Origin: an uncultured Acidobacteriia bacterium
GTDB lineage: Bacteria > Acidobacteriota > Terriglobia > Bryobacterales > Bryobacteraceae
Direction of reading: 5' to 3'
DNA length: 39,592 bases
NCBI GenBank assembly: GCA_903929755.1
Contig: CAIYVZ010000083.1
Location: 1-39,592, forward strand
The notes beneath the pieces were generated by a model that had not been told where the DNA came from, did not search any database, and saw only the letters and a list, made by a program, of their open reading frames with translations. Both the position numbers and the translations under genes were made by a program. Each line of letters opens with the position of its first letter. Within the stretch, counting starts at the first letter, position 1. Below, piece by piece: positions 18,548-19,646 of this stretch.

Positions 18548-18931
18548 ATGCGTCGAGTTTCTATTCTATTTTCAGTTTTCGCTCTTTGCGCCGTCGGCCT
18601 TGTGGCCCAGAACGCGGACCTTGCTCAGTATCAGACCTGGATGAAGGCCGGTGCCGCCGCTAACGGCGCCCTCCGTGCCGCCGTCACTGCGAAGGACGCA
18701 GCGGCGATTAAAGAAAATTCAGTCAAGGCAGCCGATGCCTTCGATGCCATCGCCAAGTATTGGGCTGACAAGGGTAAGGCTGATGCCCAGAAGTTCTCCG
18801 AAGATGCCCGCGATGCTGCCAAGGCCGTTGCTTCGGCTGACGAAGCTGGCCAGACTGCCGCTCTCGGCAAACTCGCCGGCACCTGCCGCGGTTGCCACAC
18901 CCCCTATCGCAACGGCAGCGACTTCAAATAA
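18548..18931 (+). CDS. Exported cytochrome c (class II/c'-like), C-terminal haem
   Basis: 127 residues from the ATG at 18548 (18542 is an alternative). A signal peptide (RRVSILFSVFALCAVGLVAQ) directs export to the periplasm, where haem c is attached. The single CxxCH motif, CRGCHTPYR, lies at the extreme C-terminus, as in cytochrome c' and c556 four-helix proteins; the preceding region is Ala/Lys-rich helix (AAAIKENSVKAADAFDAIAK). It would act as a small electron carrier or gas-binding protein. It is followed by a strong terminator, so it is a single-gene unit. Confidence 0.85.
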   Translation: MRRVSILFSVFALCAVGLVAQNADLAQYQTWMKAGAAANGALRAAVTAKDAAAIKENSVKAADAFDAIAKYWADKGKADAQKFSEDARDAAKAVASADEAGQTAALGKLAGTCRGCHTPYRNGSDFK

Positions 18932-18975
18932 ATCTCTCCTGATTCCGCTCAACAGAGGGTGGATTCGTTTTTTCA

Positions 18976-19022: not shown

Positions 19023-19095
19023 GGTTTCACTCCGCTCGTCCGATTTGTCCCAGGGACGGTCCGGACTGGACTTTCCTTTCCTCTTTTCCCTCCCG

Positions 19096-19124
19096 TTGAC
19101 AACTCGCGGGAGCAGGCGTAAGTT
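19096..19124 (+). promoter_or_regulatory. Sigma-70-type promoter upstream of the rpmE leader
   Basis: TTGACA (19096-19101) is a perfect -35 box, with an exact 17-bp spacer to TAAGTT (19119-19124), which keeps the TA and final T of a -10 box. Transcription would start near 19131. It is the clearest promoter in the window and drives the structured leader before rpmE. Confidence 0.6.
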
Positions 19125-19155
19125 GTAGTTATCACTGACGTAGGTATCACTGAAG

Positions 19156-19167
19156 AAGGAGGTGGTC
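19156..19167 (+). promoter_or_regulatory. Near-perfect Shine-Dalgarno of the leader mini-ORF
   Basis: AAGGAGGTGGTC differs by one base from the full complement of the 16S rRNA 3' end (AAGGAGGTGATC). The ATG follows at 19175. Such extended pairing is exceptional and could serve ribosome recruitment or a regulatory pairing. Confidence 0.65.
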
Positions 19168-19174
19168 CAAAAGA

Positions 19175-19216
19175 ATGAATCCTGGAAGTAGACCGTACGA
19201 GGTGGCCGACTACTGA
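19175..19216 (+). CDS. 13-codon mini-ORF in the rpmE leader
   Basis: ATG to TGA encodes MNPGSRPYEVADY. It is preceded by an almost full-length Shine-Dalgarno. The stop codon lies within a hairpin (19204-19223). If the reading frame shifts +1 at the TGA, it stays open for 35 more codons to a TGA at 19320-19322, just before the terminator-like stem, giving residues such as FPSFWRTRKFLWTGHF. So this is either a leader peptide, a 48-residue protein made by +1 frameshifting, or a small gene with an indel. No family is recognised. Confidence 0.4.
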   Translation: MNPGSRPYEVADY

Positions 19217-19331
19217 GTCGGTCGTTCTAAAAGCTGACGCGTTTCCGTCTTTTTGGCGGACTCGAAAGTTCCTGTGGACCGGTCACTTCGTGCGCAACGT
19301 AAGTAGCTGTCTCAGGCAGTGAGAAGTAAAA

Positions 19332-19380
19332 ACAAAGCCCTCGGACGCCACTATCGGCGTTTCCGGGGGCTTTGTGTGTT
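19332..19380 (+). terminator. Terminator-like hairpin just before rpmE
   Basis: ACAAAGCCCTCGG (19332-19344) pairs with 19363-19375 and, across a TT bulge, ACGCC pairs with GGCGT around a 6-base loop. It is very stable but followed only by GTGTT, a weak T tract. Since rpmE starts 28 bases later with no room for a promoter, the hairpin must be read through, making it a candidate attenuator. Confidence 0.6.
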
Positions 19381-19403
19381 AAGATAGAGTTTCTGAGGAC
19401 CTA

Positions 19404-19646
19404 ATGAAAGCTGGAATTCACCCCGCATACAACGAGGTAAACGTGATTTGTGCTTGCACAAACGTGTTTAAGACTCGTTCCACCCACAAAGGCGACATCC
19501 GTGTCGAAATTTGCTCAAACTGCCATCCCTTCTTTACCGGGAAGCAGAAGCTGATTGATACCGCTGGCCGCGTCGATCGGTTTGAGAAGAAATATGCCAG
19601 CCAGCGCGCTGAGAAAGCTACGCGACTCGCTGGCGTCAGCAACTAA
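19404..19646 (+). CDS. rpmE: 50S ribosomal protein L31
   Basis: 80 residues, full length. L31 bridges the large and small ribosomal subunits. The start [20 protein letters not shown] and the zinc-binding [14 protein letters not shown] block identify the C+ (zinc-containing) form, with Cys pairs intact, followed by [15 protein letters not shown] at 19394-19397 is the ribosome binding site. The gene is preceded by a structured leader with a terminator-like hairpin and followed by its own strong terminator, so it is probably regulated by transcript attenuation or L31 feedback. Confidence 0.97.

Follow-up and report, generated by a model that had tools for sequence, protein, structure and literature searches.

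A conserved structured RNA gene with a micro-ORF next to rpmE in an acidobacterial genome and its probable kinship with Ms_IGR-5

SgrS is a dual-function small RNA (sRNA) that carries a small open reading frame (ORF). Ms_IGR-5 (RF02471) is an sRNA listed by Rfam for actinobacteria, and the passages that name it describe RNA-seq evidence from S. lividans (PMC8079986), a transcription unit for an sRNA of Ms_IGR-5 type from S. avermitilis (PMC8780764) and a transcript overlapping IGR-5 from M. smegmatis (PMC10454040). In sections of PMC4974804, ribosomes are described to leave footprints on the MS_IGR-5 RNA of two mycobacteria, M. abscessus and M. smegmatis, but also on tRNAs and many noncoding RNAs, and the MS_IGR-5 footprints are therefore weak proof of translation. 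Few papers name Ms_IGR-5, and the passages in which they do so make no mention of the micro-ORF tail considered below; the Ms_IGR RNA in the relevant section of PMC11129820 is a different one. For a second sRNA, CC2171 (RF01867) of Caulobacter, we found no paper, and the relevant sections of PMC4117421 (Caulobacter) contain nothing on this RNA. By title and abstract, no paper on an acidobacterial RNA of the kind described here was found.

Here we analyzed a stretch of 39,592 nt of acidobacterial DNA (the window), in which a conserved small RNA gene spans positions 19096-19376 and is laid out as follows.

19096-19101 and 19119-19124, + strand: promoter, TTGACA and TAAGTT separated by a 17-nt spacer (from sequence and conservation)
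19130-19153, + strand: predicted 5' end of the RNA, with TATCACTGA twice, at 19130-19138 and 19145-19153 (from comparison)
19156-19168, + strand: SD1, an extended Shine-Dalgarno (SD) site, AAGGAGGTGGTCC (complement of the 16S 3' end with one G-U)
19175-19216, + strand: micro-ORF of 13 codons, MNPGSRPYEVADY-stop, with conserved tail EVxxx-stop (from comparison)
19195-19208, + strand: 5' strand of helix P1, formed by the last micro-ORF codons (from an own-versus-swapped duplex test and pair counts)
19199-19207, + strand: SD2, GAGGTGGCC, inside the micro-ORF, its first base 15 nt before the stop codon
19206-19221, + strand: hairpin P2, whose loop contains the stop codon (read from the sequences by eye, with no statistics)
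19241-19261, + strand: hairpin P4, with loop TTTTT here and a pseudoknot partner in the loop of relatives
19280-19293, + strand: 3' strand of helix P1 (same duplex test and pair counts)
19313-19322, + strand: CAGGCAGTGA, with which the 5' TCACTG could pair instead; L002, L003 and L007 have it too
19334-19373, + strand: terminator-like stem AAAGCCC...GGGCTTT, the 3' boundary of the RNA (from folding; similar stems in relatives by eye)
19377-19385, + strand: extended -10 element of rpmE, TGTTAAGAT, which bounds the RNA (from conservation)
19404-19646, + strand: rpmE (ribosomal protein L31), a neighbor judged to lie outside the RNA unit

The -35 box, direct repeat, 16S complement, 13-codon ORF and terminator-like stem of the original prediction are thus all present at 19096-19373, and three of them need qualification. 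The perfect TTGACA box is there and conserved, but is not a rare motif (four occurrences on each strand of the window), and a promoter scan of the window listed none at this locus; the promoter is credible because it is conserved in relatives. The repeat is real but apparently specific to this genome, the best-matching relative (L002) having a single TATCACTGA. The stem likewise exists, but is followed by no clean T run and is missing from the terminator scan of the window. Neither TATCACTGA nor GAGGTGGTCC occurs elsewhere in the window, and a DNA search of the assembly (6.86 Mb) found this single copy of the RNA. Folding of the RNA gave z = -3.1, with one of 200 shuffled sequences equally stable. 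In this genome the conserved 5' end has undergone a 15-bp duplication at 19130-19153, and P4 (19241-19261) has no CAGTG loop of the kind common to most relatives; the duplication and the loss of the loop may be linked. The gene upstream (18548-18931) encodes a small protein that looks secreted and carries the heme-binding motif CRGCH, by which we take it to be cytochrome c'-like; a terminator-like site lies 3' of the gene at 18944-18963.

A DNA match to positions 19090-19403 was found in 40 of 101 genomes, the window's own included, and the matched loci share one order of elements: TTGAC(A) and, about 17 nt further on, a -10-like box; then a start resembling TATCACTGA, the stretch AAGGAGGTG(G/A)TCC and a start codon, from which a short ORF runs to an ending such as EVADC; last come hairpins and a G+C-rich terminal stem. 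A pattern for the 5' part, CACTGRN{1,4}AGGAGGTGRTCCA, found at least 118 stretches in GTDB species genomes, many in records titled Bryobacterales or Bryobacteraceae, and a TTGAC/TTGCC/TTGAA box lay at about the window's distance in 112 of the 118 among the matches listed. A covariance model, R1 (149 positions and 19 pairs from 20 sequences), matched 89 of 299 genomes of the class, in families f1, f3, f4, f5, f8 and f11. Since R1 found no match in the same-genus genomes G010 and G018, which are 98-99% complete, the RNA seems dispensable there. The underlying alignments A1 and A2 cover 39 of 44 loci (L007, L020, L028, L029 and L051 were excluded as divergent), and 19 of the 39 aligned sequences were left out of the model alignment A3. 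A further set of 158 copies was gathered by the SD1 pattern GGAGGTG(A/G)nC, a GAGGTG-like six-mer and the stop distance, so that its counts and nucleotide table are partly true by construction, whereas tests on the 112 promoter-box loci and on 106 of these are unconditioned.

AAGGAGGTGRTCC near ATGAA occurs in 11 of 101 genomes, at least one of them (L038) unrelated by its letters; a strict two-part pattern hit 4 of 247 acidobacterial genomes, namely the window's own and three others, all three with the micro-ORF. In the phylum to which G344 belongs (a Hyphomicrobiales record), it hit 1 of 299 genomes, and this match reads like coding sequence. Pattern matches L069, L079, L094, L142, L149, L160 and L167 were rejected as unrelated, having no promoter box or fitting ORF. 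A Bryobacterales-like copy sits in a MAG titled Bordetella parapertussis (L133, CALQCC020000012.1), which is probably a mislabeled or mixed bin. Assembly G007, whose contamination is given as 6%, holds two different copies (L008 and L047), each followed by rpmE, possibly from two organisms.

The original prediction found no leader that it could name, and this holds for the window itself, which gave no match in a first Rfam scan and only weak ones in a permissive scan (best E 0.62); permissive searches of relatives, however, point to Ms_IGR-5. The covariance-model check proposed at the time returned no L31 or other Rfam leader above chance, and a tmRNA or tRNA-like identity was rejected with ARAGORN, which found no gene in seven loci, including that of the window (L001). 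RF02471 likewise did not match the window, and none of 61 genomes exceeded the Rfam gathering cut-off (45 bits), the best score being 39.2 bits (E 5.5e-7, in G081). At E<=1, RF02471 gave 18 matches in 16 of the 61 relatives, of which nine, including the two best (5.5e-7 and 1.8e-4), fall on the RNA locus (G081, G061:C961, G035, G001, G011:C32, G063, G029, G023 and G007) and nine elsewhere (best E 0.004). A permissive cmscan of L121, from a MAG titled acidobacterial gp4, aligned RF02471 from its first position (E 0.0035). In a Zixibacteria record (G345, E 0.0099) and a Sumerlaeia record (G346, E 0.09) the match falls on the locus that the pattern had found independently, but these E-values are close to noise: G350 has a match elsewhere at E 0.03, and two of 14 controls (Caulobacter vibrioides and Thermus composti) also reach E<=0.1.

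In the phylum of G343 (L160, titled Propionibacteriales), RF02471 matched 27 of 100 genomes, 13 of them over the cut-off. An in-frame stop codon stands 15 nt from the first base of GAGGTG in 24 of 28 actinobacterial RF02471 loci (exceptions: L240, L243, L245 and L249), closing micro-ORFs with peptides such as MNSLRTREVAAR and LSDSSHGPREVTGS. The start codon is ATG, GTG or TTG in 20 of the 24; L232, L234, L235 and L241 have CTG (three) or only ACG (one) where it is expected, perhaps near-cognate starts behind a very strong SD site. The same combination of extended SD site, micro-ORF and stop distance is present in the window. Likeness to Ms_IGR-5 extends to the 5' end, the EVxxx-stop ending, a structured 3' part and a transcription unit of its own. 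The difference lies in the Bryobacterales-like copies, which have a long P1 and a 5' pseudoknot and no AATCC-n-CAG: this 3' motif occurs in 8 of 18 actinobacterial copies, in 11 of 21 other copies from outside Bryobacterales and in 5 of 117 Bryobacterales-like copies, where by eye none of the five stands in the motif's context. We suppose that AATCC-n-CAG before the terminator defines the Ms_IGR-5 family. As actinobacterial and other non-Bryobacterales copies share the motif and Bryobacterales-like copies lack it, the window RNA belongs to a derived branch. By cut-off and motif the window RNA is not a member of RF02471 as Rfam defines it; judged mainly by the common micro-ORF layout, it quite probably belongs with Ms_IGR-5 to a wider family. 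CC2171 shares a similar GAAAGGAGGUGAUCCA start (E 0.1 on L121), but this match rests on the SD stretch and makes for a putative kinship only.

Among the matches listed, the first start codon opens an ORF ending in E(V/G)xxx-stop in 106 of the 112 promoter-box loci; four of the six exceptions are cut by the end of the locus, one has K for E, and the sixth is L142 (titled Hyphomicrobiales), judged unrelated. These listed loci encode 93 distinct peptides in 12 length classes of 11-22 codons. A glutamate stands five codons before the stop in all 20 regions that were hand-chosen from 90 R1 matches, mostly low-scoring (18 EVxxx-stop and two EGAGS-stop). Its codon is GAG in 106 of 106 listed loci and the next is GTG in 94, in a set selected for neither, and in 105 of 106 the third base of the last sense codon is a pyrimidine. 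GAGGTG starts 15 nt before the stop codon and leaves 6 nt to the last sense codon, a gap that we take for the spacing of an initiation site. In the micro-ORF body, substitutions between copies at <=15% divergence fall almost equally on the three codon positions (83/74/104), in a table built on the 158-copy set and so partly true by construction. The body peptide appears little conserved while frame and stop position are kept, which points to the act of translation, rather than the peptide, as what matters. We consider it unlikely that the RNA serves as mRNA for a bioactive micropeptide with the conserved tail (REVADx) as its functional product: frame, start and stop are indeed kept in nearly all evaluable pattern-found copies among the matches listed and the EVxxx tail recurs in actinobacteria, but the body varies almost evenly over the codon positions, the tail is conserved as nucleotides, as fits an SD-like site, and where a start is expected four of the 24 actinobacterial copies offer no more than CTG or ACG. 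SgrS-type dual-function RNAs resemble this one in being small RNA genes with a translated short ORF, but in the present RNA the ORF is embedded in the structure, sits between two SD-like sites and encodes a body peptide with little conservation.

SD1 was compared with the 16S 3' end of a same-family genome (G019, ...GGCTGGATCACCTCCTTTCT), of which it is the complement with one G-U; the match is to a relative, as pattern searches did not recover this end from the window's own assembly (a first pattern, probably too strict, found nothing, and its replacement found 4 of 41). Predicted duplexes with the G019 16S reach -27.0 kcal/mol for the window SD1, -26.6 for the copy of G019 itself and -33.2 for an f3 copy, against -15.1 for the window SD2 and -8.2 for a typical AAGGAG. 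Across the 158-copy set SD1 reads GGAGGTGGTCC in 142 and GGAGGTGATCC in 16, a variation narrowed by the collecting pattern. Such constancy and the strength of the duplexes of the three copies favor a non-translated regulator whose long 16S complement acts by titration or chaperoning, either of the 16S 3' end or of free 30S subunits, and whose ORF is incidental; however, an incidental ORF would not be expected to keep its frame through 12 length classes among the matches listed, and the footprints on the actinobacterial relative, in the sections of PMC4974804 cited above, lean toward translation. We regard this alternative as improbable, to the same degree as the micropeptide.

P1 pairs the last ORF codons with a strand about 70 nt downstream. 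In an alignment-free duplex test on 151 of the 158 copies, the 5' strand paired more stably with its own downstream region than with swapped regions on average in 124; own duplexes had a mean of -25.4 kcal/mol and swapped ones of -22.3 kcal/mol. In alignment A2, 94.5% of the cells for the ten inner P1 pairs and the pseudoknot can pair, compared with 92.9% in shuffled and 20-54% in slid alignments; the covariation score is 0.201 versus 0.167. Because the inner pairs vary mainly on one side, mostly by G-U, we think that the own-versus-swapped signal comes from the outer part of P1, which is not in register in A2. The pseudoknot between the 5' end and a hairpin loop was tested in the 128 copies with ACTGA or ACTGG upstream: ACTGA goes with TCAGT at 84:1 and ACTGG with CCAGT at 15:1, while 22 copies have neither partner and five have both. 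An exact six-base complement exists in 88 of the 128 copies; swapping partners gave 69 on average (at most 78 in 500 trials) and shuffling 2.9, so that the five-base test is the more telling. The P1 and pseudoknot statistics treat related sequences as independent, which makes their printed P values too strong.

Comparison thus shows, for the RNA in general, an SD1 almost perfectly complementary to the 16S 3' end, an ORF of 11-22 codons that stays open and in frame while its body is under little constraint, an SD-like GAGGTG at a constant distance from the stop codon and a P1 that buries the last codons and, for the Bryobacterales-like group, a 5' pseudoknot. The pseudoknot was rejected as a universal feature, since distant copies such as L098, L099 and L152 have no six-base complement. 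The window's own TTTTT loop offers no partner; on folding, the 5' TCACTG could pair instead with CAGTGA further downstream. It is possible that the P1 3' strand alternatively pairs with SD1, giving a switch. RNAalifold on a MAFFT alignment gave no more than 11 pairs, three of which make up an invariant small hairpin at SD1 that we do not accept. Both the mini-ORF and the structure, on whose conservation in relatives the original prediction had hung, are present there, and comparison lends good support to its suggestion of a terminated mini-mRNA or small RNA of its own. The locus very probably encodes an independent conserved RNA with a translated-looking micro-ORF.

The other half of that prediction, an element controlling L31 by read-through because no space was left for another promoter, fared worse. 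The conserved extended -10 at 19377-19385 provides rpmE with a promoter element of its own, and 67 of 79 rpmE-linked copies have TGnTAnnnT in the 70 nt before rpmE, compared to 6.3% after shuffling. In the 142 copies of the 158-copy set with at least 500 nt downstream, the next gene is rpmE in 79 (in 77 of them 207-369 nt after SD1), tsaD in five and neither in 58, so that 63 have another neighbor. The five with tsaD directly after the RNA (L022, L024, L039, L040 and L145) come from other families. Among same-genus genomes, the rpmE comparison covered G010, G015 and G018 (G005 and G012 gave no rpmE match): in these three no SD motif of the kind seen in the RNA was found within 600 nt of rpmE, and they carry TGGTAACAT, TGCTACCAT and TGCTATGAT, respectively, 19-23 nt before its start codon. 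The position beside rpmE is a habit of this lineage. Rfam leaders of ribosomal proteins, L31 included, share with this RNA a place upstream of rpmE in many copies, but no downstream gene is constant here. A cis leader or attenuator, in which translation of the micro-ORF decides termination at 19334-19373 before L31, is the least likely reading and was rejected, for although translation genes are known to be preceded in some cases by leaders with a short ORF, and rpmE, where linked, mostly lies 207-369 nt after SD1, the association is not constant, rpmE has its own -10 even in the three genomes with no such RNA upstream, and no antiterminator is visible because P1 and the terminal stem do not overlap in the window.

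We read the RNA as a divergent Ms_IGR-5-like, ribosome-engaging RNA. The best explanation, to which we give an even chance, is an independent sigma-70-type unit whose product, a structured small RNA about 240 nt long, acts by way of the ribosome; comparison establishes its structure and reading frame, whereas its expression in this genome and its mechanism are what we infer. Ribosomes would enter at SD1 and translate the micro-ORF, opening P1 as they go; once they reach the stop codon, GAGGTG would lie 6 nt from the P-site codon, a spacing like that of initiation, and so hold the terminating 30S subunit; when ribosomes are scarce, P1 would reform. The RNA would so exist in two states, open while ribosomes occupy it and folded otherwise, and might serve in trans to sense or buffer the loading or recycling of ribosomes. 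We propose this ribosome-coupled mechanism tentatively, at somewhat less than an even chance. With more reserve still, the RNA may represent a deeply conserved class whose product is the act of translating the micro-ORF, with near-maximal SD entry, a second-SD catch at the stop codon and refolding that reads out ribosome availability or recycling; this class would reach across Acidobacteriota, Actinomycetota and single Zixibacteria and Sumerlaeia MAG records, with Ms_IGR-5 as its only named branch.

The finding cautions against taking this RNA for an L31 leader. It also gives an sRNA that Rfam lists for actinobacteria likely relatives in acidobacteria, sharing its micro-ORF, and provides an orphan RNA family with a testable hypothesis, along with a natural case in which two SD-like sites bracket a micro-ORF about as long as the stretch that two ribosomes cover.
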